Shown here: positions 49,028 through 64,000 of the stretch, one piece after another | Position numbering within the stretch: position 1 is the stretch's first letter | Layout: every line of letters begins with the position of its first letter | Assembly: GCF_000820505.1 (NCBI RefSeq) | Contig: NZ_JWJD01000005.1 | Location: forward strand, 92,323-156,322 | Reading direction: 5' to 3' | Length of the DNA stretch: 64,000 nucleotides | Source of the DNA: Geoalkalibacter ferrihydriticus DSM 17813 | GTDB taxonomy: Bacteria > Desulfobacterota > Desulfuromonadia > Desulfuromonadales > Geoalkalibacteraceae | The notes under the pieces: generated by a model | Told to the model about the DNA's origin: nothing | Databases searched by the model: none | Seen by the model: the letters and a program-made list of their open reading frames with translations, nothing else | Translations under genes and position numbers: made by a program

Positions 49028-49117
49028 TTCACCGCTGAGAGCGCAAAGAGCGCAGAGAAAAATAGAAATATTAATCTCAAAGTCTTGCTCAGCGATCTCG
49101 GCGTTCTCGGCGGTGAA
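49028..49117. repeat. TTCACCGC-terminal intergenic repeat, copy 1
   Basis: Begins TTCACCGCTGAGAGCGCAAA and ends TCTCGGCGGTGAA, forming an imperfect long inverted repeat around an AT-rich centre. It fills the nifD-nifK gap. A second copy is at 51282. Confidence 0.75.
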
Positions 49118-49136
49118 AATAAAAAGGAGTCATGCC

Positions 49137-50594
49137 ATGAGCGAAGCCGTTAAAAAAGTCACCGAAATCACCCCCGAAGAAGAAGCGCGGGTGCTGGAAT
49201 GGACCAAGTCCAAGGACTACCTTGAAAAAAACCTGGCGCGTGAGGGGACGGTCATCAATCCCGCCCATGGTTGCCAGCCGGTCGGTGCCCAGCTTGCCGC
49301 GCACGGTTTTGAAGGCAGCTTGCCATTTGTGCACGGCTCTCAGGGCTGCGCCTCCTATTACCGCTCGACTCTCAATCGCCATTTTCGCGAGCCGGCGCCG
49401 GCCGTGTCCGACTCCATGACCGAGGACGGCGCCGTGTTCGGCGGCCAGAACAACCTGTTCGAAGGCCTGGAAAACGCTTATGCCCTCTATAAGCCGAAAA
49501 TCATGCCGATTTTCACCTCGTGCATGCCCGAGATCATTGGTGACGACCTGACCGCCTTCATCAGGAACGCGCGGAACAAAGGCCATATCCCCGAAGATTT
49601 TCCGGCGCCTTACGCCAATACGCCCAGTTTCAACGGGACCCACATCCATGGCTACGACGCCATGCTCAAAGCGATTCTTGAGGACCTGACCGCGGGCAAG
49701 CGCGTCGATGGCGCCTGCACCGGCAAGCTCAACCTGATCGCGGGCTTTGACGCCTGTACCGGCAACTATCGCGAATACAAGCGCCTGCTCGATGAGATGG
49801 ACGTACCCCATACCATCCTCGCCGATATTTCCGAGGTTTTCGATTCGCCCCTGGACGGCGAGTACCATATGTACCCCGGCGGCACGCCCCTGGAAGATGC
49901 GGCCGCGTCCGTCAACGGCAAAGCGACCATCTCTCTGCAAAAGTACGCAACCGCCAATACCATGAAGTTCGTCAAGCAGGAGTATGCCGGCAAGCATGAA
50001 GTGCTGCCCATGCCCATCGGCGTGCAGGCCACAGACACTTTCCTGCTCAAAGTGTCCGAGCTGTTCGGCAAGCCGGTGCCCGAGTCCATCAAGGCCGAAC
50101 GCGGCCGCTTGGTCGATGCCATGACCGACGCTCATCAGTATCTGCACAACAAGAAATTCGCCATTTACGGCGACCCTGATCAGTTGCTGGCCCTTGCGGG
50201 CTTTCTGCTGGAAATGGGCGCCAAGCCCTACCACGTGCTCTGCTCGCGCGCCACCAAGAAATTTGAGAAGGAGATGCGTGAGCTGCTCGACGCCTCGCCC
50301 TACGGTAAGGGCTGCCATGTGTGGGTCAACAAGGATCTCTGGCACCTGCGCAGCATTCTGTTCAACGACCCCGTGGACATGATGATTGGCGACACCCACG
50401 GCAAACTCGCCGCCCGCGATACCGGCACGCCGCTGATCCGCGTTGGTTTCCCCATTATCGATCGGGTCAACATTCATCGCTATCCCGTTATCGGCTATCA
50501 GGGCGCCCTCAACCTGCTGACCTGGATCGCCAACAAGTTTCTCGACATCAAGGATGACACCTGCGAAGACCAGTGGTTCGAGATGATGAGATAG
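49137..50594 (+). CDS. nifK: Nitrogenase MoFe protein beta chain NifK
   Basis: A 485-residue subunit that completes the alpha2beta2 MoFe protein. P-cluster ligands Cys46 (GCQPVG), Cys71 (GSQGCASYY) and Cys129 (FTSCMPEIIGDD) are all present and offset by 24 from Azotobacter. It lacks the longer N-terminal extension of the 523-residue Azotobacter protein. AAGGAG precedes the ATG at 49137. The GTG at 49113 lies in the repeat. Confidence 0.98.
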   Translation: MSEAVKKVTEITPEEEARVLEWTKSKDYLEKNLAREGTVINPAHGCQPVGAQLAAHGFEGSLPFVHGSQGCASYYRSTLNRHFREPAPAVSDSMTEDGAVFGGQNNLFEGLENAYALYKPKIMPIFTSCMPEIIGDDLTAFIRNARNKGHIPEDFPAPYANTPSFNGTHIHGYDAMLKAILEDLTAGKRVDGACTGKLNLIAGFDACTGNYREYKRLLDEMDVPHTILADISEVFDSPLDGEYHMYPGGTPLEDAAASVNGKATISLQKYATANTMKFVKQEYAGKHEVLPMPIGVQATDTFLLKVSELFGKPVPESIKAERGRLVDAMTDAHQYLHNKKFAIYGDPDQLLALAGFLLEMGAKPYHVLCSRATKKFEKEMRELLDASPYGKGCHVWVNKDLWHLRSILFNDPVDMMIGDTHGKLAARDTGTPLIRVGFPIIDRVNIHRYPVIGYQGALNLLTWIANKFLDIKDDTCEDQWFEMMR

Positions 50595-50612
50595 AACACA
50601 CGGGACGAGAAT

Positions 50613-50647
50613 CGCGGGACGCGGAACCTGAGCTGCCGCGTCCCGCG
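50613..50647. other. Hairpin after nifK
   Basis: A perfect 12-pair stem, CGCGGGACGCGG with its complement, around an 11-base loop, 18 bases after the nifK stop. There is no U tract. It may stabilise the nifHDK mRNA end or attenuate read-through into nifX. Confidence 0.5.
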
Positions 50648-50737
50648 AAAACTCGGCCTTTAGCGCAGGCAGGATTCTGAATGTTTCGGATGCGCCGCTT
50701 CGAGGTGATAGTTGGATCAAAAAAGCGAGGTCTCAGC

Positions 50738-51124
50738 ATGAAAGTCGCATTTGCAAGCACGGACAAGACCCATATCGACGAGCATTTCGGTCAGGCCGAG
50801 CATTTTTATATCTGGGACGTAGGGCCTGAGAGCGCTGAGTTTTCCGGCGTGGTTCAGGTCAAGGCTGACGCTGACGCCCTGGGCCATTCCGACGATAAAA
50901 TCGAGGCCCGCGCCGCGGCCCTGAATGACTGCGCCCTGGTCTATGTCGCCGAGATCGGCGGGCCGGCGGCGGCGCGCCTGGTGGCCAAGAAAATCCATCC
51001 CGTCAAGAGCAAGGACCGCGAGGCGATCTCGGTAGTCGTCGAAAAATTGCAGGACGTTCTGCGCAGCAGCCCGCCGCCCTGGCTGCGTAAAGCCATGCTC
51101 AAGGGTGAGCGGCCCGCGATATAA
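50738..51124 (+). CDS. nifX: NifX-type FeMo-co biosynthesis/carrier protein
   Basis: A 128-residue protein of the NifX/NafY/dinitrogenase FeMo-cofactor-binding family. The N-terminal KVAFASTDKTHIDEHFGQAE with the conserved HFG motif binds NifB-co or FeMo-co precursors. The C-terminal PPPWLRKAM ending is typical of NifX. I start at the ATG at 50738. The longer frame to 50681 lacks a ribosome site. Confidence 0.85.
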   Translation: MKVAFASTDKTHIDEHFGQAEHFYIWDVGPESAEFSGVVQVKADADALGHSDDKIEARAAALNDCALVYVAEIGGPAAARLVAKKIHPVKSKDREAISVVVEKLQDVLRSSPPPWLRKAMLKGERPAI

Positions 51125-51138
51125 AATCAAAAAAAATC

Positions 51139-51272
51139 GTAACCATTCAGCTGCAACGTCCGACAGCACCGCAGGGGGCGGCGGCTGAGTGCTTCGGCAA
51201 ATGTTTGAGCCGCAGGCGAGTTTTTGCCGCACGCGATGCCGCCGTCCCCTGCGGCGCCTGCTTAACAGTTAC
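51139..51272 (+). mobile_element. GTAAC-terminal MITE-like element, copy B (full length, 134 bp)
   Basis: Begins GTAACCATTCAGC and ends GCTTAACAGTTAC, near-perfect inverted ends. Same length and same internal AATGTTTGAGCCGCAGGCGA block as copy A. It lies between nifX and the ferredoxin gene. Confidence 0.75.
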
Positions 51273-51281
51273 ATAAAATCA

Positions 51282-51392
51282 TTCACCGCAGAGAGCGCGA
51301 AGAACGCGGAGGCAGGCCTGGGGTAAATCCTGAAAAGGGACATGGCCTTCTTTGGGATTTTTCTCGGCGTTCTTTGCGCTCTTTGCGGTGGA
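51282..51392. repeat. TTCACCGC-terminal intergenic repeat, copy 2
   Basis: Begins TTCACCGCAGAGAGCGCGAA and ends TTTGCGCTCTTTGCGGTGG. It is an imperfect inverted repeat related to the one between nifD and nifK. It begins ten bases after element copy B. Confidence 0.7.
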
Positions 51393-51428
51393 AAATCTTC
51401 TCGCATCCATCGAAAAAGGAGAATCACC

Positions 51429-51698
51429 ATGGCTTATCTGACCGGAAAAACCAAAGGGGGCAAGGACTGGACCCCCAACTTTATCGAAGCCATCGATGCG
51501 GAAAAGTGCATCGGTTGCGGCCGCTGTTACAAAGCCTGCTCGCGCAACGTGTTCGCGCCGGAAGATTTCGAGGATGAAGAAACGGAATCCCTGCGCATGA
51601 TCATGACCATCGCCAATGACCAGAACTGCATCGGCTGCGTGGCCTGTGGCGTGGCCTGCTCCAAAAAGGCTTTCAGCTTTAAGCCGCTGGCCATCTGA
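51429..51698 (+). CDS. nif-associated 2[4Fe-4S] ferredoxin (FdxB/ferredoxin III type)
   Basis: An 89-residue ferredoxin with two Cys motifs, [11 protein letters not shown] and [11 protein letters not shown], separated by about 35 residues, which is the nif-specific ferredoxin III layout. It may supply electrons to nitrogenase or to the radical SAM step of cofactor assembly. I start at the ATG at 51429 with AAAGGAG upstream rather than the ATG at 51342 inside the repeat. Confidence 0.9.
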
Positions 51699-51713
51699 CC
51701 CGGGGAGGCACCT

Positions 51714-52079
51714 ATGCTCATCGCCGTTGCATCAAAATCCGGTACGCTGGTCGACCAGCATTTCGGCCACGCCGAGCGCTTTCTCATTTATGATTGCGCC
51801 GGCGGAAAACCGCAGCTGGTGGACCAGAAACCCGTGGAGAAATACTGTTCCTTCGACCCCGACCACCCGTTTCGCGAAGACAAATTCAGCGCCATCCTCG
51901 CCGCCCTCGCGGGCTGCCGCGCCGTGGTCAGCGCCCAGATCGGCGAGCTGCCCAGGCAGGAACTGGAAAAACGCGGAATCTCCGCCATCAGCGCCGTCGG
52001 TCCCATCGACCAGGCGATCCTGGCGGCCCATGGCACCCTGTGCGGCTGCGGCGGTGGTTGCGGGCCTAACAACTGCTGA
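51714..52079 (+). CDS. NifX/NafY-family cofactor-binding protein with Cys-rich tail
   Basis: A 121-residue protein of the dinitrogenase iron-molybdenum cofactor family (LIAVASKSGTLVDQHFGHAE, with the HFG motif), resembling the C-terminal NifX-like domain of long NifB proteins. The C terminus ends in CGCGGGCGPNNC, suggesting a metal or cluster site. GGGGAGG precedes the ATG. Because the NifB encoded next is short and lacks this domain, this protein may supply it in trans. Confidence 0.85.
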   Translation: MLIAVASKSGTLVDQHFGHAERFLIYDCAGGKPQLVDQKPVEKYCSFDPDHPFREDKFSAILAALAGCRAVVSAQIGELPRQELEKRGISAISAVGPIDQAILAAHGTLCGCGGGCGPNNC

Positions 52080-52128
52080 GTTTCTGCACAAATTCGATTC
52101 ATCCTGAGAGTGCAATTGCCCAAGGCTT

Positions 52129-52171
52129 GGGCAGGCTGGTTTTTGCGAGATTCCAGCCTGCCCATTTTTTT
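52129..52171 (+). terminator. Intrinsic terminator of the nifHDK-nifX-fdx transcript
   Basis: A perfect 11-pair stem, GGGCAGGCTGG with CCAGCCTGCCC, followed by A and seven T. It lies between the NifX-like gene and the nifB sigma-54 promoter, closing the upstream operon. Confidence 0.88.
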
Positions 52172-52206
52172 ATGTAAAAACGGCCTGTTAGCCGTTTTGT
52201 CCAGGT

Positions 52207-52222
52207 TGGCACAGCCAATGCA
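52207..52222 (+). promoter_or_regulatory. Sigma-54 (-24/-12) promoter of nifB
   Basis: TGGCAC-AGCCA-ATGCA with the ten-base GG-GC spacing. It restarts transcription after the terminator at 52129, giving a leader of about 150 bases. Confidence 0.87.
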
Positions 52223-52234
52223 GTTAAGGAAGTC

Positions 52235-52303
52235 GACACAAGGTTGTGTCACTCATAACAGGCAACGAAGCCCCGCATCTCAAGCTGAGATGGCGGGGCT
52301 TTA
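52235..52303 (+). promoter_or_regulatory. nifB leader antiterminator (ANTAR-type hairpins plus terminator)
   Basis: Hairpin 1 is GACAC[AAGGTT]GTGTC at 52235-52250, hexaloop A1 and G4. After ten bases comes GGC[AACGAA]GCC at 52261-52272, also A1 and G4. Its GCC starts the terminator stem GCCCCGCATCTCA with TGAGATGGCGGGGC, followed by TTTAT. The U tract is short. Confidence 0.75.
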
Positions 52304-52382
52304 TCGTTACGGACCAGGCAAGGGCGCTTTCCGCACAACGGAAGAGCGCCCTTGCGCGTTTTTACTTATAAGGAGACCGATC

Positions 52383-53252
52383 ATGAGCAAATCCTGCCCG
52401 ATGATGGCCATGAAGAAACAGAGTGAGCATCCCTGCTTCGGCGGCGACCATGACAAGGCCGGGCGCGTGCATCTGCCCGTGGCGCCGGGCTGCAACATCA
52501 AGTGCGGGTTCTGCGAGCGCAAGTTCGACTGCGCCAACGAAAGCCGCCCCGGCGTCACCAGCCGGCTTCTCACGCCCGCCGAGGCCCTGGAGCGGGTGCG
52601 GCTGTTGCTGCGCCACCCCAAGGTCGGCGACAAGTTGCGCGTGGTCGGCATTGCCGGCCCCGGCGATCCGCTGGCCAATGAAAAGACCTTTGAAACCTTC
52701 CGGCTGGTCAAGGATGCCTATCCTGACATGATGCTGTGTCTTTCCACCAACGGCCTGCTGTTGCCCGAACGCATCGATGAGATTGCTGCCCTCGACGTGC
52801 ACAGTCTCACCGTCACCATCAACGCCCTCACCGCCGAGACCGGCGCCAGGGTTTATGAATGGGTGCGCTATCAGGGCGCGGTGCTGCGCGGCGAGCAAGG
52901 CGCGGCCCTGCTTCTCGAAAAACAGCTCGCCGGACTTGAAGCGGCCGCGGGGCGCGGCCTGTTGGTCAAGGTCAATCACGTCTACATCCCCGGCGTCAAC
53001 GATCATGAAACTCTCGATCTGGCCGTTAAGGTACGCAATCTCGGCGCGACCCTGATGAACATCATCCCGGTCATCCCCATCGGCCTGTTCAAGGACATCA
53101 AGCCGCCCTCCGATGCAGTGATGGAGATGGTACGCAACCAGGCTGAATTGATTCTCTCCCAGGCCCGCCACTGCCGCCAGTGCCGCGCCGATGCCGCCGG
53201 GCTGGTGGGCCAGGACATCGATCTGACGGAGTTGCATGCGCAGGCCGGTTAA
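52383..53252 (+). CDS. nifB: Nitrogenase cofactor biosynthesis radical SAM protein NifB
   Basis: A 289-residue radical SAM enzyme that fuses two [4Fe-4S] clusters and inserts carbide to make NifB-co. The SAM cluster motif CNIKCGFC is at Cys37, Cys41 and Cys44, preceded by the family's HPCFGGDHDKAGRVHLPVAPG. Other conserved motifs are NESRPGVTSRLL, GIAGPGDPLAN and the C-terminal CRQCRADAAGL. The C-terminal NifX-like domain of long NifB is absent. AAGGAG precedes the ATG at 52383. It is the first gene of a nifB-modABC operon. Confidence 0.96.
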   Translation: MSKSCPMMAMKKQSEHPCFGGDHDKAGRVHLPVAPGCNIKCGFCERKFDCANESRPGVTSRLLTPAEALERVRLLLRHPKVGDKLRVVGIAGPGDPLANEKTFETFRLVKDAYPDMMLCLSTNGLLLPERIDEIAALDVHSLTVTINALTAETGARVYEWVRYQGAVLRGEQGAALLLEKQLAGLEAAAGRGLLVKVNHVYIPGVNDHETLDLAVKVRNLGATLMNIIPVIPIGLFKDIKPPSDAVMEMVRNQAELILSQARHCRQCRADAAGLVGQDIDLTELHAQAG

Positions 53253-53268
53253 AAATAGGAGAAGGATT

Positions 53269-54051
53269 ATGCGCCTTGGGGTCGGGTTGTTGGGATGTAC
53301 GTTGTTGTTCCAGTTGTTTTGCGCAGGGGCGGTTAGGGCAGCTGAAGTGCGGGTGTCGGCGGCGGCGAGCATGGCCGAGGCCCTCAGGGAAATCGCCGCC
53401 GCTTACACGCAGATGTCTCCCGCTGAGGTGGTGATCGCCAATTTCGGGGCATCAGGCGCTCTGGCGCGGCAAATCGAGCAAGGTGCTCCGGCCGATCTTT
53501 ATCTCTCGGCGAATGCGCAGTGGGTGGAGTATCTGATCGCCGCCGGCCGAATCGCAGGTGAGGATGTTCGCACCCTGGCCGGAAACTCCCTGGTGTTCGT
53601 GGGGCGTTCAGGTCTCGAAGTCACCACCCTGGCGGATCTCTCCGCGCTGGGGCGCATCGCCCTGGTCAACCCGCGCAGCGCGCCCGCCGGGGAATATGCC
53701 CAACAGGCCCTGGATGCCGTCGGCGTCTACGCCGCCCTTGCCGGCAAGCTGGTCATGGCCCAGGATGTACGCCAGGCCGTCGTCTACGCCGATCGCGGTG
53801 AAGTCGACGGCGCACTGGTCTATAAATCCGACGCTCTCCTTGCCCGCCAGGCCGTCATTCTTCACGAAGTGCCGGCTCATCTTCATAACGAAATCAGCTA
53901 CCCTGCGGCCCTCACCACCAGCGGCCGCAATAATCCCAACGCCGTTGCCTTCTTCAATTTTCTGCAAAGCGACACGGCTCGCCGAATCCTGCACAGTTAC
54001 GGTTTCATCGTCGAAGAAGAGGTTCTCCCGCAAATGACCAAGGACCAATGA
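53269..54051 (+). CDS. modA: Molybdate ABC transporter substrate-binding protein
   Basis: A 260-residue periplasmic protein. A signal peptide ends near AGAVRAAEV (cleavage about residue 25). The mature start VRVSAAASMAEALREIAAAY and the segment ANFGASGALARQIEQGAPADL are ModA hallmarks that contact molybdate. It follows nifB by 16 bases with AGGAGAAGG upstream. The downstream permease and ATPase complete the transporter. Confidence 0.95.
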   Translation: MRLGVGLLGCTLLFQLFCAGAVRAAEVRVSAAASMAEALREIAAAYTQMSPAEVVIANFGASGALARQIEQGAPADLYLSANAQWVEYLIAAGRIAGEDVRTLAGNSLVFVGRSGLEVTTLADLSALGRIALVNPRSAPAGEYAQQALDAVGVYAALAGKLVMAQDVRQAVVYADRGEVDGALVYKSDALLARQAVILHEVPAHLHNEISYPAALTTSGRNNPNAVAFFNFLQSDTARRILHSYGFIVEEEVLPQMTKDQ

Positions 54052-54066
54052 CAAGGGACGGTTTTC

Positions 54067-54756
54067 ATGTTCGATTTCACCCCCACGGACTACCAGGCCA
54101 TGGCCCTTTCAGCGAAGGTGGCGCTTGTCGCGACCATGCTTTCGCTGCCTTTGGGCTTTGCCGCCGCCTGGCTGCTGGTGTTCAGTCGCGTACCCGGCAA
54201 GGCGCTCATCGACGGGATCATCAACTTGCCTCTGGTGCTGCCGCCGGTGGTGGTGGGCTACCTGCTGCTGCTCACCCTGGGCAGCCAGGGGTGGCTGGGC
54301 GGATTGCTCGACGCTTGGGGGATTCGCGTTATTTTCACCTGGAAGGCGGCAGTGCTGGCCTCCATGGTGGTGGGTTTTCCCCTGCTGGTGCGCTCCATCC
54401 GCCTCGGCATGGAGAGCATCGACGAGCGTTTGATCCAGGCCTCGCGGACCCTGGGGGCGCCTTGGTATGATACGCTCCTGACCGTGATCCTGCCCCTTTC
54501 GACCCGCGCCCTGATTGCCGGTGCGACCCTGATGTTCGCCCGCAGCCTCGGAGAATTCGGCGCCACCATCATCGTCGCCGGCAACATCCCCGGCGTGACC
54601 CAGACCATCCCTCTGGCCATTTACGATTACACCAACACCCCGGGCGGCGACCGCATGGCTCTGGCCCTGTGCGCGGTGTCCATCCTGCTGGCCCTTGCGG
54701 TACTGTTGTTCAACGAGGGCCTGGTCAAACGCTTCAAGCGGGGAGAACTGCGATGA
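54067..54756 (+). CDS. modB: Molybdate ABC transporter permease
   Basis: A 229-residue inner-membrane permease with five to six hydrophobic segments and the EAA-type loop DERLIQASRTLGAPWYDTLLTVILPLS that docks on ModC. LPLVLPPVVVGYLLL is typical of ModB. It overlaps modC as ATGA. Confidence 0.95.
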   Translation: MFDFTPTDYQAMALSAKVALVATMLSLPLGFAAAWLLVFSRVPGKALIDGIINLPLVLPPVVVGYLLLLTLGSQGWLGGLLDAWGIRVIFTWKAAVLASMVVGFPLLVRSIRLGMESIDERLIQASRTLGAPWYDTLLTVILPLSTRALIAGATLMFARSLGEFGATIIVAGNIPGVTQTIPLAIYDYTNTPGGDRMALALCAVSILLALAVLLFNEGLVKRFKRGELR

Positions 54757-55811
54757 AGCTCGAGGTGTCGGTGCGCAAACGCTATGAAAACTTTTCCTTT
54801 GAAGCTGATTTTTCCGTGCAGGGCGCGCGCATCGGCGTGTTCGGTCCCTCGGGCAGCGGCAAATCCACCCTGATGCATCTGCTTGCCGGGCTGCTGCCCG
54901 CCGACGCGGGCTTCATCCACCTGGACGGGGTGCCCCTGTATCAGAGCGCGCGCGGTATTGAGGTGCCCGCGCGCAAGCGGCGCATCGCCGTGGTGTTTCA
55001 GCATGCCCATCTGTTTCCCCATCTGAGCGTGCGCGCCAATCTTCTGTACGGCTACAAGCGCATTGCCCGGGCCGAGCGGCGCATCGACCCCGACACCCTG
55101 TGCGAGGTGCTTCACCTTGGGCCGCTACTCGGGCGTGGCGTCAATGCTCTTTCCGGAGGCGAGCGCCAGCGCGTGGCCCTGGGGCGGGCGGTGCTTGCCC
55201 ATCCGCGCCTGATCCTCATGGATGAGCCTGTGACCGGGCTCGACGAGGGGCTCAAGTACCAGATTTTGCCCTATCTCAAGCAGACCTTCGCCGCCTTCGG
55301 CATCCCCCTGATCTTCATCAGTCACTCTCTCACCGAAATGCGCCTGATGACCGACGAGGTGCTGGAGTTCGAGGACGGGCGCCTGACGGCCCAGTCCGGC
55401 GTGGAAGACCTGGCGCGGCGCCGCCTGGCCTCAAGCCCGGTGGGTTACATCAATCATCTGCGGCTCGAAGACGGCCGTGCCCAGAGCGATCTGTGGGATT
55501 ATCGCTGGGGAGAGAATCGTCTGATTCTCTCCAGCGGCAACGGTGTTGGGGGCGGAGGGGTTTTCGAGCTCTCCTCCAAGGATGTCACCCTGTTCAAACA
55601 GCATCCGGAGGCCACGAGCGCGCGCAACATTCTGCGCTGTCGGGTGAGCGGGATTTTCCCGGCCGGCAACCGGGTGGGCGTTGATCTTGACTGCGGCGGC
55701 GCGAAGCTTGTATCTCAGGTGGTGGGGGAGGCGGCGCGGGATCTGGAGCTGCATCCCGGGCGCGAGTTGTTCGCCGTGATCAAGGCGTCGGCGTTCCGGC
55801 GTCTGTGTTAA
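54753..55811 (+). CDS. modC: Molybdate ABC transporter ATPase
   Basis: A 352-residue ATPase. Walker A GPSGSGKST is near residues 30-38, the signature is LSGGERQRVALGRA and Walker B is LILMDEPVTGLD. The C-terminal third contains a Mop/TOBE-like regulatory segment (NILRCRVSGIFPAGNRVGVD). The ATG at 54753 overlaps the modB stop. The longer frame from 54669 lies in modB. Confidence 0.95.
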   Translation: MKLEVSVRKRYENFSFEADFSVQGARIGVFGPSGSGKSTLMHLLAGLLPADAGFIHLDGVPLYQSARGIEVPARKRRIAVVFQHAHLFPHLSVRANLLYGYKRIARAERRIDPDTLCEVLHLGPLLGRGVNALSGGERQRVALGRAVLAHPRLILMDEPVTGLDEGLKYQILPYLKQTFAAFGIPLIFISHSLTEMRLMTDEVLEFEDGRLTAQSGVEDLARRRLASSPVGYINHLRLEDGRAQSDLWDYRWGENRLILSSGNGVGGGGVFELSSKDVTLFKQHPEATSARNILRCRVSGIFPAGNRVGVDLDCGGAKLVSQVVGEAARDLELHPGRELFAVIKASAFRRLC

Positions 55812-56784: not shown

Positions 56785-58956
56785 ATGAAGGATTTCAGGT
56801 TGGGCGTAAAGTTGATGAGCGGGTTTGTTCTAGTCGGCTTGATCACCCTTGCCGTCGGCGGCATTGGTGTCAACGGCCTCAAATCATTACAAGGCGATAT
56901 CGAAATTCTGGGTCGGGAGAAACTGCCGTCTGTTGAACATCTCTATACCATCAAGGAAGCCGCCCAGGGATCGACCATCGTTCACCGCTCTCTGCTCAAT
57001 CCAGGGTTTACTTTGGCTGAACGCGAGGCCCTCTACGAGGAGAACGCGCGAACCCGTGGCGTCATCCAGGCGGCGCGCGAAGCTTATCTGCAGTTGCCTC
57101 TGGGCACCGCCGAACGTGCGCTTTATGATGAACTCATGGGGGCCTGGCGGGTGCGCGCCGAGGCGGTGAACCGCTTCACGGATTTGTCGCGTCGCCTCGA
57201 CCAAACCGGCATCCTCAATCCTGCGCGCCTGCGCGCCGATCTGGAAAAATTTCGCGGCGACCATTATCGCGCCGCAGTTCAGACGCAAGACCTGATTCAT
57301 TCCGGCGCCGACTTTCAGGGCGGGGAGGACCCGAGCCTGTGCGCCTTCGGTCGCTGGCTGCCGACCTTTGAAACAACCAACTCACAACTGCAAGATCTGC
57401 TTCACCAGGTGCGCGGCGTGCACCATGAGTTTCACGGTAACGTCGCGCGCATTAAAGATCTCGCCCGGCGCGGCTACACCGAGCAGGCTCAGGAACTCTA
57501 CCGCACAGCCATGATGCCCGCGGTGGACAGAACCCTAGCAGTGTTCGGCGAAATGATTCAGGTGGCGGGCCGTGCCGAAGTTCTTCATGCCGAGATGTCT
57601 GATTTGCTCATGGGCGACGTTGCGCGGCACAGCGCGCGCACCTATGAACTGCTCGACCAACTTATCGGACTGACCAAGGCCAATGCCGAAGAGGCGGTTG
57701 TCGTTGCCGAAAGCGAGGTGCGACAGGCGGTTCAATGGAGTCTGTTCGGCAGCATCCTGGGCGTTTTTCTGGCGCTTTTATTCGGCGTACTGCTCACGCG
57801 CAGCATCACCCGCCCCCTTGGCCGGGCCCTCGAAATGATACAGGATTTGGCCGCAGGTCGCCTCGGCAGACGCTTGAATCTCAAGCGTCAGGACGAAATC
57901 GGGCAGATGGCCCTGGCCATGGATGGATTTGCCGACAACCTGGAGAAGGAAGTGCTGGAGGCCTTTAAACGCCTGGCCGACGGTGATTTTACCTTTGAAG
58001 CGCAGGGACTGATCCGAGAGCCCCTGGCGCAGACCAACCACAGCCTTAACGCTCTGGTCGGCGAGCTTCAGCAGGTGGCCAACCAGATTGCCGGTGCCGG
58101 TGGCGAGGTGGCCGACGCCAGCCAGTCCCTGTCCCAGGGCGCCACCGAGCAGGCCAGTTCCCTGGAGGAGATCTCGGCATCGATGAACGAGATGGTCTCC
58201 CAGACGCGGCAAAGCGCCGAGAACGCAGGGCAGGCGAATCATCTCTCCGACGAGGCACAAAAAGCGGCCGAGCAAGGCAATCGAAAAATGGGTGATATGA
58301 CACAGGCCATGGCCGAGATTTCCGAGGCCGGTCAAAGCATCTCTAAAATCATTAAAACCATCGAGGAAATCGCTTTTCAAACCAATCTGCTCGCGCTGAA
58401 TGCCGCCGTCGAGGCGGCGCGCGCCGGTCAGCACGGCAAGGGATTTGCGGTGGTGGCCGAGGAGGTGCGCAATCTGGCGGCGCGTAGCGCCAAGGCCGCA
58501 GGAGAGACCGCCGAACTGATTGAAGGCACGGTGGAAAAAACCTCCCGTGGCACGCAAATTGCGAATGAGACCGCTCAGGCCCTCGACACGATCGTTGGGG
58601 GGGTTCGCAAAGTCACGGATCTGATCGGGGAAATCGCCACGGCGGCCAACGAGCAGGCCGAGGGTATCGGCCAGGTCAATTCCGGCCTCTCCCAGATTGA
58701 TCAGGTAACGCAGCAGAATACCGCCAACGCCGAAGAGAGCGCGGCGGCCGCCGAGGAGCTTTCCGCCCAGGCCATGCAGCTCAAACAAATGCTGGCGCGT
58801 TTTCGTTTGAGCGCAGCCGTGCCGGATGTATCCGCGCCAAGTGAAAAAACTCAGCCTGCGGCTTTTGCCGCGCCGCAGGATGTCTGGCCGGCTGCACAAC
58901 CCGCCGCCAAAACAACAGCCATCGCTCTCGACGACGATGAGTTCGGACGTTATTGA
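56785..58956 (+). CDS. Methyl-accepting chemotaxis protein with CZB-like domain in the sensory part
   Basis: A 723-residue chemoreceptor. TM1 is at about 9-30 and TM2 at about 318-338. Between them the presumed periplasmic region has a helical bundle and a segment resembling the chemoreceptor zinc-binding (CZB) domain: His160, Cys186 in LCAFGRWL, then His213/214 and His217. HAMP follows TM2, then the kinase-control tip [20 protein letters not shown]. The C-terminal tail is disordered and ends [11 protein letters not shown] domains usually sit in the cytoplasm, so this placement is notable. GGAGG precedes the ATG. Confidence 0.88.
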
Positions 58957-59041
58957 CCAGGAGGCAACCACGTCGGCAATCCGACAACCTGAGGTGTCGG
59001 AACCTTGACTCAACCCCAGCTTAAAAAAGGAGGATCTCTTC

Positions 59042-59773
59042 ATGCGACATCTGTTTATTTGTCTGGCGCTGCTCGGAGCCCTGGCCCTGAGTGGACCCGC
59101 GGCGGCATCCGAGGATCCGCCCGAAATCAACGCGGCGGATCTCAAGGCCCTGATGGACAAGGGCGAGGCCAAGGTCATTTTTCCTCTGAGTCTTATCGAA
59201 TTCAACAGCCTGCACATTGCTGGTTCCGTGCATATCGAACTCGGCAATATCCCCGACCAGTTGCCGGCGGACAAGAACCAGACCCTGGTCTTTTACTGTC
59301 TGGGCCGAACCTGACTGGCCGCACCCGCAGCCGCCCGTCGGGCGGCCGAAGCTGGTTTCCAGAATGTTCACACTTTCCGTGACGGCCTGCCTGCCTGGAT
59401 AGGAGCAGGCTATCCGGTCAATGCGCCCGAGCCCCTGCCACGCGTGGATATCCCCGTGCTGGTCTCCGCCGAAGTCAAGAGCGCCCTGGATTCGGGCGAA
59501 GACCTGGTTCTTTTGGATATCCGCATTCAGCAGGAGATTGACAAATATTATATCGACCATCCCAAGCGCATGGTGGTGCCCTTCAACAGCCTGCTTGAGC
59601 GGGTCGGCGAAATTCCTCAAGGCAAGAAGATCATCATCGTGGATGTCAACGGGCAGCGCGGGCCGACCGCCGGCCGCTTCCTGACCGCCCGTGGTTTTTC
59701 CGACGTGGCCTTTCTCAACGGCGGCATGCAGCGCTGGGTCGTAGAGGGCATGCCGACCAAGGCCGGCAATTAA
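59042..59773 (+). CDS. Exported double-rhodanese protein, probable selenoprotein (in-frame TGA = Sec91)
   Basis: The frame runs from the ATG at 59042 (AGGAGG upstream) to 59773, interrupted only by TGA at 59312-59314. Both sides are in the same frame and together give a 243-residue protein. It has a signal peptide (residues 1-23, ending GPAAAS), a first rhodanese domain (about 28-135) and a second one (about 140-243). The TGA falls in FYCLGRT-TGA-LAA, which matches the FYCxGxxC active-site pattern of related periplasmic rhodaneses, so selenocysteine would replace the second, catalytic Cys. Fifteen bases after TGA a perfect GCCGCCC-GTC-GGGCGGC hairpin (59330-59346) has a G in its loop and lies at SECIS distance. 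The second domain has VDVNGQRG with no Cys, so it is probably inactive. The alternative is a nonsense mutation or sequencing error. Confidence 0.72.
59330..59346 (+). promoter_or_regulatory. Candidate bacterial SECIS hairpin
   Basis: Seven-pair stem GCCGCCC/GGGCGGC with three-base loop GTC. The loop begins 22 bases after the TGA codon and its first base is G, which fits the general bacterial SECIS rules (loop within about 16-37 bases, G among the first two loop bases). Confidence 0.6.
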
Positions 59774-59840
59774 CCAGTGGGGCGCGGGGTGTGCCCCGCG
59801 CCCTTGCTTCAAACCTTTGCCTGTTGTTTAGGGAGACGCC

Positions 59841-62009
59841 ATGCGCCTGATCGACAATCTGAAAATTTCGGCCAAACTTTTTGTGTCTTTCGGCGCAGTT
59901 TTGGCGCTTTTCCTGGGTTTCTCGCTGCTGAGCTACCTCAACGCCGAGCGTATCGGCGCCGAGGCGACGGTTCTCAAGGAAGAGCGTTTTACCCACGCCA
60001 TCGCATCTCTGGAACTGGTCAATCGGGCCGACGGCGTGGCTAACTCCCTGGTTGCCGCGGCCGACGCGCAGCGCCAGGATTTGCTCAGACAGGCCGAGGA
60101 GCAGCTGGTGCACTACCAGGAAGCTCTGGCGCAGTTGCGCGAGTTGCACCTATCCCCAGCTCTGAATGGCGCTCTGGCCGCTTTGGACGCGAGTTTTCTC
60201 GCCATGTTCGAGGCGGGCAAAAGCATGGCCCGCTATGCCATCGCCCAGGACTTCATTGGCATGATGGAAGCGCGCCCCGCCTTTGCCGAGGCCCAGCAAG
60301 CCTTTGTCGCGCAGGCCGAGGAGCTCAAGCAGACGGGCTCCGCCGAGTTGCATTCCGGGCTTGAGGGCATCGATGCCCTGGCCGCGCAGACGGCACGCAC
60401 CGGCCTGATCGTTTCGCTGTTCGCCCTGGTCTTTGCCGTATTGTTGGCCGTGCTTATCACGCGCAGCATCGCTCGGCCACTCAAAAGCACTCTGGCGATG
60501 CTTCATGAACTGGAGAAAGGGCATCTGGAGCATCGCCTCAAGATGGGCCGCAAGGATGAGATCGGCGACATGGGGCGTGGTCTCGACGCCTTCGCCGAAA
60601 GCCTTGAGACGGAAATCGTCGCCGCCATGGAATCCCTGGCCCAGGGTGATCTGACCTTCACCGCCCAACCGCGCGGGCAATCCGACCGCTTGCGCAATGC
60701 GCTGCAAACCGTGGCGCTTGACCTCAACAGTATTCTGCACGAGATCCGCAACGGTGCCGAGCAGATCACCAGCGGTTCCAATCAGGTCTCGTCCTCCAGC
60801 CAGTCGGTGTCTGATATGGCGACGCGTCAGGCCGGTGCCTTGCAGGAAATCGGCAGTTCCATCAACGAACTCGAATCCCAGACGCGGCTCAACGCGCAAA
60901 ATTGCGGGCAGGTCAACCGGCTGGCCGCCGAGGCGCGCGACGCCGCCGCAGCCAGCAATGGGCATGTGGGCAAGATGGTCGGCACCATGAACGAGATTGC
61001 CGCCGCCGGGCAGAACATCTCCAAAATCATCCGCACTATCGACGAAATCGCTTTTCAAACCAACCTGCTGGCCCTCAACGCCGCGGTCGAGGCGGCGCGC
61101 GCCGGTCAGCACGGCAAGGGTTTTGCCGTGGTCGCCGAAGAGGTGCGCAACCTCGCGGCGCGCAGCGCCAAGGCCGCTCAGGAAACCAGCGAACTGATCA
61201 CCTCGTCCATCGACAAGACGGGCGCGGGAGTCGAAGTCGCCGAACAGACCGCTACGGCTCTTAACGATCTTGCCGAGCGCATCGCCAAGGTCAGTAACTT
61301 GGTGGATGAAGTGACGGTGTCTTCGCGCGAACAAGCCGAGGGCATCAAGCAGATCACTCTCGGCGTGGATCAGGTCGACATCGCCGTGCAGCAAAACACC
61401 GCTAACGCCGAGGAAAGTGCGGCGGCCGCCGAGGAACTTTCGGCCCAGGCCGAGCAGCTCAAGCAGATGATCAGCCGCTTTCGCCTCGACAATGCGTCCG
61501 CGCCTCGCCCGGCGACGCCCGCCCCTGTCGCGCAACGATCCCTCGGCGCGCCGCAACCTGCGGTGCAATCCAAAAGGCAACCCGCCGCGCACGGCGGCGA
61601 GCACGTGCTGATGCGCTGGAGCGAGGATCTGAGCGTCGGCATCGAGCATCTCGATCGTCAGCATCAGCAGTTGGTGGCCATGGTCAACGAGATGTTCGCC
61701 GCCTTGAAAACCGGCCAGGGCGATAAGGTGCTGAGCGACATCCTTGACCGGCTGGTTAATTACACCCAGCGGCATTTCTTCGAGGAAGAACGCATGATGA
61801 AGTCCCACCAGTATCCGGACCAGGAGGCGCATAAGGCGGCTCATGCCCAGTTGGTGGCGCAGGTGGCGGATTTTCAGACAAAATTCAAGGCCGGCAAGGT
61901 CTCCGTGTCCAGCGATTTGTTCAACTTCCTTAAAGGCTGGCTGATCAATCATATCCAGGGTGAGGACAAAAAGTACGGCCCCTATTTCAACGGGCGCGGC
62001 GTTTACTAG
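59841..62009 (+). CDS. Methyl-accepting chemotaxis protein with C-terminal hemerythrin domain
   Basis: A 722-residue chemoreceptor. TM1 is at about 12-32 and TM2 at about 190-210, around a short helical periplasmic region. HAMP, the signalling tip [20 protein letters not shown] and a flexible linker follow. The C-terminal 130 residues are a bacteriohemerythrin domain: [30 protein letters not shown] and [13 protein letters not shown] supply the His/Glu/Asp ligands of an O2-binding di-iron site. DcrH-type receptors of this design sense oxygen or redox. It follows the rhodanese gene by 67 bases with GGGAG upstream. Confidence 0.93.
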
Positions 62010-62287: not shown

Positions 62288-63442
62288 ATGGCGTTTCATT
62301 CTATGCAGATGCCGATCGAGAAGCCCATCGTCATCGACGACACCACTCTGCGCGATGGGGAACAGACCGCCGGGGTGGCCTTTTCCCTGGAGGAAAAAAT
62401 AACCATCGCCCGCATGCTTGATGAAATCGGAGTGGGCGAACTCGAATGCGGCATCCCCGCAATGGGCGCGATCGAACAGGCAAGTGTGCGGGCTCTCGTC
62501 GATCTGGGGCTGAAGGCGCGGCTTATTACCTGGAACCGCGCCCTGGTCAGCGATATTCAGGCGTCTTTGGACTGCGGTATCCGCGCGGTGGACATCAGCC
62601 TGTCGGTGTCCGATATTCATATCACCCACAAGCTGCGCAAGACCCGCCAGTGGGTCAGGGAGCAGCTCAGGCGGGCACTGGATTTCTGTGCCAAGCACGA
62701 TCTCTATGTGTCGGTGGGTGGTGAGGATTCCAGCCGTGCTGATCCGGACTTTCTCGTGGAGTTGATGCAGATCGCCAAAGAGATGGGTGCCGACCGTTTT
62801 CGTTTCTGCGATACTCTGGGAATCCTTGATCCCTTTTCCACCTACGAAAAGATCACCTACCTGCGCAGCCATGTGGATTTGGATCTGGAGGTGCATACGC
62901 ACAACGACCTGGGCATGGCCACCGCCAATGCCATCGCCGGAGTCAGGGCCGGAGCGCGATTTGTCAACACCACGGTCAACGGCCTCGGCGAGCGGGCCGG
63001 AAACGCCGCTCTGGAAGAGGTTATCATGGGCCTTAAGTACGCTTGCGGCCTGGATCTCGGCCTGGATACGCGGCGCTTTGTGGATATCTCAAAATTCGTC
63101 GGTCGTGCCAGTTGCCGGCCGGTGCCCGAGTGGAAGGCGGTGGTGGGTGAACGCGTGTTTTCCCATGAGTCGGGTCTGCATGCCGATGGGGTGCTCAAGA
63201 ATCCGCAAAATTATGAAGGGTTCGATCCTGGTGAAGTCGGTTTGGGGCGGCACTTGGTGCTGGGCAAGCATTCGGGCAGTCAGGCGCTGGTGCACCGGCT
63301 CAAAGAACTGGGCGTGGAATTAAGTCGTATTGAGGCCGTGGCACTGCTCGATCGGGTGCGCAGCATGTCCCAGCGCAACAAGCGCGCACTGACCGATAGT
63401 GAATTGCTCCTCCTGGCACGACGTCACGCCGAGGTGGCCTGA
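62288..63442 (+). CDS. nifV: Homocitrate synthase NifV
   Basis: A 384-residue enzyme that condenses acetyl-CoA with 2-oxoglutarate to make homocitrate, the organic ligand of FeMo-co. The DRE-TIM signature IDDTTLRDGEQTAGVAF is at the N terminus. The metal-binding HTHNDLGMATANA and the NGLGERAGNAALEEV segment are intact. Length and the nif promoter distinguish it from LeuA. GAGAGGTG precedes the ATG. It has its own sigma-54 promoter and antiterminator leader. Confidence 0.95.
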   Translation: MAFHSMQMPIEKPIVIDDTTLRDGEQTAGVAFSLEEKITIARMLDEIGVGELECGIPAMGAIEQASVRALVDLGLKARLITWNRALVSDIQASLDCGIRAVDISLSVSDIHITHKLRKTRQWVREQLRRALDFCAKHDLYVSVGGEDSSRADPDFLVELMQIAKEMGADRFRFCDTLGILDPFSTYEKITYLRSHVDLDLEVHTHNDLGMATANAIAGVRAGARFVNTTVNGLGERAGNAALEEVIMGLKYACGLDLGLDTRRFVDISKFVGRASCRPVPEWKAVVGERVFSHESGLHADGVLKNPQNYEGFDPGEVGLGRHLVLGKHSGSQALVHRLKELGVELSRIEAVALLDRVRSMSQRNKRALTDSELLLLARRHAEVA

Positions 63443-63832: not shown

Positions 63833-64000
63833 ATGACCAACCTTTTGATCGATCTTGACGCAGCGCTCGTCTTGCGGGAGCGTGGGGCGCTTTTCATCGA
63901 TGCCCGTTCCCCCGCGGAGTTTGCCGAAGCGACGGTGCCAGGTGCCGTCAACCTGCCCCTGCTGTGCAATGAAGGCCGCGCACGGGTCGGTTTGGCGTAC
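63833..64000 (+). CDS. mnmH: tRNA 2-selenouridine synthase MnmH (5' part, cut by window end)
   Basis: The first 56 codons of a gene running off the window. The translated start has the rhodanese segment FIDARSPAEFAEATVPGAVN followed by LPLLCNEGRARVG, the MnmH/SelU signature that precedes its catalytic Cys. MnmH uses selenophosphate to replace sulfur by selenium at U34 of Lys, Glu and Gln tRNAs. Its presence implies selenium metabolism in this organism, which fits the candidate selenoprotein at 59042. The catalytic Cys and P-loop domain are beyond the window. Confidence 0.85.
   Translation, partial: MTNLLIDLDAALVLRERGALFIDARSPAEFAEATVPGAVNLPLLCNEGRARVGLAY

Follow-up and report, generated by a model that had tools for sequence, protein, structure and literature searches.

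A predicted selenocysteine-containing double rhodanese encoded beside a chemoreceptor gene in Geoalkalibacter ferrihydriticus

Between two chemoreceptor genes of Geoalkalibacter ferrihydriticus DSM 17813 lies a rhodanese reading frame that is interrupted by a single TGA codon. Is this TGA read as selenocysteine (Sec, U), and does the encoded protein have any part in the work of the chemoreceptors around it? We examined the locus within the window, by which we mean the whole stretch of 64,000 nucleotides that was analysed, and compared it with related loci in other genomes. The reading that we prefer is that of an exported selenocysteine double rhodanese that works with the adjacent chemoreceptor, and we give it a probability of roughly 0.58.

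The gene lies on the forward strand at 59042-59773, as do both chemoreceptor genes, the two hairpins and the selenouridine synthase match described below on that strand, and encodes 243 residues followed by a TAA stop. As the original prediction had stated, translation gives one frame whose sole interruption is the TGA at 59312-59314, corresponding to residue 91. The strong ribosome-binding site that had been noted upstream of the ATG can be read from the sequence as GGAGG at 59029-59033, eight bases ahead of the start. Gene callers had been expected to break the gene in two, and mechanical ORF calling indeed returned 59042-59314 (90 aa) and 59444-59773 (109 aa). Judged by eye, residues 1-23 (59042-59110) form a likely signal peptide with a basic start, a hydrophobic stretch and an AAAS end, and the 243-residue product would be exported to the periplasm.

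Two rhodanese domains had been proposed, and Pfam gave two Rhodanese stretches with a whole-protein E of 2.7e-22 (PF00581, 79.6 bits vs a cut-off of 22.2). The predicted structure had a pLDDT of 92.6, and its best structural matches were rhodanese-fold chains, among them the rhodanese domains found in persulfide reductases and the polysulfide-sulfur transferase of Wolinella. Domain 1, which spans about residues 27-131 (59120-59434) according to Pfam, the structural model and the alignment, keeps a cysteine at the catalytic position: Cys86, encoded at 59297-59299, aligns with the rhodanese catalytic Cys. The TGA at residue 91 follows five residues later in the active-site loop, where translation and the alignment of homologues give the motif FYCLGRTU. 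Domain 2 covers about residues 136-240 (59447-59761; Pfam, model and structure match), and in the alignment its catalytic Cys position is taken by Asp201 (59642-59644). Because the catalytic Cys is replaced, domain 2 is probably non-catalytic while retaining the rhodanese fold.

A homologue search of 136 genomes of the order was positive in 30 at an E of 1e-12 or better. Of the 34 matching places, 25 in 24 genomes, the window included, counted as full-length (110 bits or more); the nine that we left uncounted scored 68 bits or less, being either shorter or more remote, and TGA occurs in some of these. The 25 full-length members scored 257-366 bits against their own subfamily profile. The TGA had been placed at the second Cys of an FYCxGxxC motif, and the alignment bore this out: at the same column, 13 of the 25 copies have TGA (spread over 12 genomes) and Cys replaces it in the other 12. 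Neither TAA nor TAG was found at this column in any of the 25 full-length copies, and frameshifts and unrelated stops were likewise absent from it.

The continuation of the rhodanese frame past the TGA, also part of the original prediction, was examined against the congeneric genome, which has the same TGA in a protein of 84% identity. The dN/dS ratio was 0.084 after the TGA and 0.134 in the mature part ahead of it, and 57 of the 80 differences after the TGA fell at third codon positions; this comparison shows that purifying selection acts on the frame beyond the TGA. Between two genomes with 53% of codons in common, a run of 17 identical codons spans the TGA; when the codon matches were shuffled 20000 times, a run at least as long came up 94 times.

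The genome also has the means to insert selenocysteine. A tRNA-Sec with anticodon TCA (75 bits), selA (615.7 bits), selB (392.8 bits) and selD (370.7 bits), which has an in-frame TGA of its own, were all present, as the prediction needs, and selD, selB and selA are grouped on contig C1 at 138.6-143.0 kb. The nearby tRNA 2-selenouridine synthase gene was recovered as well (TIGR03167, 314.5 bits); its match starts at 63890, about 4.1 kb from the rhodanese gene, and runs off the window at 64000. Given the conserved column and this machinery, the TGA at residue 91 is almost certainly read as selenocysteine. A sequencing error for TGC, TGT or TGG at codon 91 would agree with Cys being the usual alternative at this column, but the TGA recurs in the separate congeneric genome and, elsewhere in the order, at eleven further places spread over ten more genomes, which makes such an error extremely improbable.

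A 7-bp hairpin with a G-first loop had been described 15 nt downstream of the TGA, and we found it there at 59330-59346, with stem strands at 59330-59336 and 59340-59346 and the loop GTC. In the 13 Sec copies, the 7-position stem always has its start 15 nt past the TGA, and its 3-nt loop reads GTC, GTT, GTG or GGT. The mean number of stem pairs was 6.8 of 7 in the Sec copies (each had 6 or 7) vs 4.9 in the 12 Cys copies. When synonymous codons were resampled (with a codon pool of 200 bases only for the second G013 copy), the Sec set reached a mean of 5.07 pairs and none of 500 replicates attained the observed pairing; in the Cys set, 126 of 500 did so. Three pairs had changed on both sides, amounting to 9 cells; no shuffle out of 500 scored as high in cells, and 67 of 500 were as high by the number of such pairs. 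Shifting the stem by 1-3 columns lowered the pairing from 96% to 54% or less. Sec copies found later (one in G512, two in G417 and two in G566) also folded a hairpin in that position or immediately beside it; the Sec copy of G536 was left out of this folding set. The fold energy of the hairpin region in the window, taken as a single sequence, was not unusual for its GC-rich composition (z -0.85), and no Rfam family matched 58900-59900 at E up to 10, so the case for a SECIS rests on comparison. On that comparative footing, we consider the downstream stem-loop to be conserved as a SECIS-like element in the Sec copies.

These observations bear directly on the possibility that the TGA is a genuine stop, leaving either a pseudogene or two separate proteins. 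The two ORFs returned by mechanical finding and the lack of a significant single-sequence fold would agree with a genuine stop. The same TGA, however, is found 13 times across 12 genomes of the order, with TAA and TAG never in its place, selection is purifying past it, the stem is conserved, and tRNA-Sec and selA, selB and selD are present. This explanation is already contradicted by the comparative sequence data and we regard it as very improbable.

The location between two chemoreceptors was as predicted, with methyl-accepting chemotaxis proteins (MCPs) encoded at 56785-58956 and 59841-62009. They turned out to be more than a mere location and are the most informative feature of the locus. 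The upstream receptor has a 4HB_MCP_1 domain, a sub-threshold CZB match, HAMP and MCPsignal (Pfam and neighbour clustering). Among the loci examined, this CZB-like receptor adjoins the gene only in this genus, and we set it aside as a candidate partner. The downstream receptor, which we take as the partner from Pfam, alignment and a sensor search, has HAMP, MCPsignal and a C-terminal hemerythrin domain. Its counterpart in the congener (L130:3782-5434) has 551 aa and lacks a hemerythrin match.

The sensor part of the partner (residues 1-205) is common to receptors next to other Sec rhodaneses, and in the alignment these N-terminal 205 residues have a GxxM...IDQEF-like stretch in common. Run against the 136 genomes, the aligned sensor part gave nine matches at 229-266 bits, all of which adjoin a rhodanese; eight of the nine were query rows, and the one in G051 was not. 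The other ten matches, at 50-77 bits, had no adjoining rhodanese within flanks of roughly 1.5 kb. Near one of these weaker matches (L152), an antisense frame fits a loose rhodanese motif, which we took as chance. The aligned receptor sensors have no conserved Cys, and a disulfide contact between rhodanese and receptor is therefore unlikely.

A 10-bp GC-rich hairpin at 59780-59803, between the rhodanese and partner receptor genes, is a possible terminator, and the congener has an equivalent intergenic hairpin followed by a T run. Such a terminator would argue against simple co-transcription of the two genes and not against joint function. As read from translations, the gene pair is flanked on one side by nitrogen-fixation/molybdate-transport-like genes (about 49113-55811) and on the other by a homocitrate-synthase-like gene (62288-63442).

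How general is the pairing? When neighbours were clustered across 16 stretches, MCPs were the only widely shared family besides the rhodanese, in 8 of 16. All ten neighbouring MCPs that were scanned with Pfam had HAMP and MCPsignal; those beyond the ten were recognised from the signalling motif only. With larger flanks in the order, a same-strand MCP adjoins 9 of the 11 informative Sec loci (the window, G001, two copies in G013, G050, G051, G052, G080 and G100), and no receptor lies beside the gene in G030 and G085; contig ends made G014, G076 and L087 uninformative. The Cys copies that also have a Cys in domain 2 had no receptor beside the gene in any of 12 cases, three of which (G103, G022 and G007) offer well under 5 kb on one side. 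Among Cys copies from named organisms that keep the Asp, a receptor stands beside L084, L085, L086 and L089 and none beside L088. The scan of named organisms used a Cys-codon pattern and could find Cys forms only.

We extended the comparison to a sample of 395 genomes of the phylum, in which 19 had matches at E 1e-38 or better. A Sec copy in G512 has a receptor, whose ORF starts 48 nt past the match end, and so do the Cys/Asp copies of G417 and G566. No receptor adjoins the tandem Sec pairs of G417 and G566, nor the lone Sec copy of G536. Loci with the Cys/Asp motif FYC[LK]GPKC had a receptor in six of seven informative cases, and eight distant Asp-type relatives (seven CESxxC and one CESxxG) had no MCP motif within about 5 kb on either side. 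Conserved pairing of the two genes is thus a property of the subfamily of the window gene, a 25-row clade with a receptor at 10 of 11 informative Sec loci vs 0 of 12 Cys loci, and does not extend to all wider relatives: among the distant ones, six Sec and nine non-Sec copies lack a receptor and six Cys relatives have one. Since the species counted are related, these numbers are not independent of one another. The receptor gene lies upstream of the rhodanese in the clade of G050, G051, G052 and G080 and downstream elsewhere, so the pair has survived rearrangement. The genome of the window has 20 places with an MCP signal, a number at which chance adjacency would be rare for any one locus.

To place these states in order, we built three trees, the final one with 47 rows besides the outgroup family. 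L058, L059 and L090 were absent from the first tree, and the later two also omitted L076-L083, which were taken as duplicates of genomes already included, their sequences being identical or nearly so; the eight CESxxC/G relatives were missing from the second tree and are included in the final one. Among the Sec/Asp rows of the final tree, 10 have a receptor, 7 lack one and 2 are of unknown state; the corresponding numbers for Cys/Asp rows are 6, 8 and 1. The single Gly/Asp row and the 12 Cys/Cys rows are all without a receptor. The 25-row clade that holds the window gene had support of 99/97. Within it, the 12 Cys/Cys proteins formed one clade nested among Sec/Asp proteins in all three trees (100/97 in the final one). 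On the Cys/Cys branch, Sec gave way to Cys, Asp201 gave way to Cys and the receptor link disappeared; since all three changes fall on one branch, they amount to one coincidence and not to repeated evidence. The state of residue 91 changed at least five times in the second tree. In the final tree, the two receptor-linked groups are separated by the CESxxC/G relatives and the tandem Sec clade, and the link was accordingly either lost several times or arose twice.

Each of the 19 Sec rows in the core tree has Asp201. A general rule that Sec goes with Asp201 nevertheless failed on two counts: a sister family (L138, G478 and G630) combines Sec with a domain-2 Cys, and Cys91/Asp201 proteins also exist. 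A rule that Asp201 goes with a receptor failed on the eight distant Asp-type relatives without one.

The preferred reading can be set out as a sequence of steps. Sequence comparison supplies four elements of it: selenocysteine at residue 91, a SECIS-like stem-loop, Asp201 and the conserved pairing of the genes. SelB would insert selenocysteine at the TGA, aided by the hairpin just downstream, and the 243-residue product would pass to the periplasm. There the Cys86-x4-Sec91 pair in the active-site loop of domain 1 would be the working part and domain 2 would be structural. The thiol/selenol pair may take up sulfane sulfur or oxidise to a selenenylsulfide, and the helical sensor that the receptor has in the periplasm would register the altered state of the rhodanese through physical contact. 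As a chemical signal of this kind reached it, the receptor would then steer motility, the presumed behavioural output.

A functional partnership of rhodanese and receptor is, from the loci compared, somewhat favoured; we rated it lower once the eight Asp-type relatives without a receptor had joined the count. That the signal is a sulfur or redox species, with sulfane sulfur or an oxidant as the putative ligand, is a tentative suggestion against which the odds lean.

The strongest competing explanation is that the protein is a Sec-containing periplasmic sulfurtransferase or thiol-oxidoreductase that serves sulfur metabolism or oxidant defence, with the chemoreceptors functionally unrelated to it. 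Every argument for Sec fits this explanation equally well. The structure is best matched by rhodanese folds, such as those of persulfide reductase domains and of the polysulfide-sulfur transferase from Wolinella, and some Sec copies as well as the eight distant Asp-type relatives have no adjoining receptor. It accounts poorly, however, for the contrast within the subfamily between Sec loci, of which 10 of 11 informative ones have a receptor, and Cys loci, of which 0 of 12 do, seen across several families and in two gene orders, and for the loss of the catalytic Cys from domain 2. We judge it to be a serious contender that nonetheless falls short of an even chance.

Taken to its full extent, the partnership reading would describe a two-gene sensory module, in which a Sec double rhodanese with one dead domain acts as a detachable ligand- or redox-sensing subunit of a chemoreceptor and selenium chemistry steers cells to or from sulfane sulfur, polysulfide, selenium oxyanions or oxidants. 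In one lineage, what had been a sensor would then have become an ordinary sulfurtransferase, as it jointly gave up Sec, Asp201 and its link to the receptor and acquired Cys at a second catalytic position. We put this fuller version forward as a possible scenario, one that we would not yet bet on.

If the partnership is real, a selenoprotein would have a part in how bacteria behave, and a function could be assigned to one branch of the Sec rhodaneses, which are given as predicted in the available text of a 2026 catalogue (PMC13188914). The pairing with a receptor makes the function of the rhodanese testable, and a natural experiment is offered by the single branch of the tree that has lost Sec together with the domain-2 Asp and the link to a receptor. 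Annotators gain a subfamily whose Sec members are split by mechanical ORF finding.

Several other Sec rhodaneses came to light alongside this gene. The same genome has a second one on contig C3 at about 305.6-306.0 kb (L022), with the motif LYCAU; from its sequence it is probably a member of NF041203. A multi-domain rhodanese from a genome of the same family (L011/L016, G004) has an in-frame TGA in FYCGGPTU at the homologous site, and paralogues with Sec at that site occur in this class. In G417 and G566, tandem Sec rhodaneses with the motifs CMGxDU and CLSxRU stand without a chemoreceptor (L213 and L214), and the Cys/Asp copy beside a chemoreceptor is encoded elsewhere. L142 (G237) is a single-domain rhodanese with a signal-like N-terminus and an in-frame TGA in FYCSGSTUGQS, which also fits UxxS. 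The sister double-rhodanese family (L138/L231 in G205, L224 in G478 and L229 in G630) has FYCNG or FYCSG and combines Sec with a Cys at the catalytic position of domain 2. The hairpin with a fixed 3-nt loop was not seen in the folds of L138 and of the G478 and G630 copies of this family, nor in that of L142.

A rhodanese with Sec in its active-site loop is in itself no new kind of selenoprotein; the double-rhodanese subfamily is one more of this kind. In the accessible portion of the 2026 catalogue, five rhodanese-like selenoprotein forms are listed as predicted, among them form 1 (UxxS, WP_010941598.1), form 3 (NF041203, CxU) and form 5 (TsoB, UxxxxU) (PMC13188914). Related rhodanese selenoprotein entries also appear in the available parts of a 2022 catalogue (PMC9312934) and of the Sargasso Sea study (PMC1088965). 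The selenoproteins of three Geobacter species, as far as the accessible text of PMC1794560 gives them, include no rhodanese, and the main text of the deep-Sep paper (PMC12013277) does not contain the word.

With none of the NCBIfam models that it matched did the subfamily protein reach the cut-off. Form 1 resembles the window protein in having Sec in a rhodanese domain. The residues after Sec give ULAA in the window protein and UVAS or UTAS in some relatives. A multi-rhodanese protein of about 490 aa in G159 and G175, which belong to other families of the same class as the window genome, has Sec at a homologous site in the motif FCAGVTUALS and fits UxxS; by this motif it may be form 1. It stands apart from the subfamily, whose profile gave a best match of 82.6 bits in four genomes of the genus of G159 vs 257-366 bits for members. 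NF041203 (rhodanese_LYCAU) is also a Sec rhodanese, but its Sec comes two residues after the Cys and that of the window protein five; with 57.9 bits vs a cut-off of 115 and the motif CxxxxU, the window protein is not a member.

The closest parallel in the active-site loop is TsoB (NF045694), whose rhodanese stretch aligns with residues 69-128 of the window protein (E 7.2e-12). From the spacing of the motifs, its two Sec residues would correspond to Cys86 and Sec91. TsoB is a rhodanese/DsbD fusion with a model of 572 positions, against which the window protein reached 44.2 bits vs a cut-off of 805, and the latter is not a member. For TsoB, the 2026 catalogue cites Haft and Tolstoy 2025.

What is new here is the genomic surroundings, that is, the receptor link. 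A literature search on rhodanese-chemoreceptor pairs, combined with selenocysteine, periplasmic or polysulfide, gave none, judged mostly by listings, and the accessible part of PMC3543383 describes no such pair. We know of no rhodanese or selenoprotein that serves as a periplasmic subunit of an MCP. The arrangement as such is a familiar one: soluble periplasmic proteins do report to MCPs, for example the maltose-binding protein to Tar, and the proposed pair would likewise join a soluble periplasmic protein to an MCP.
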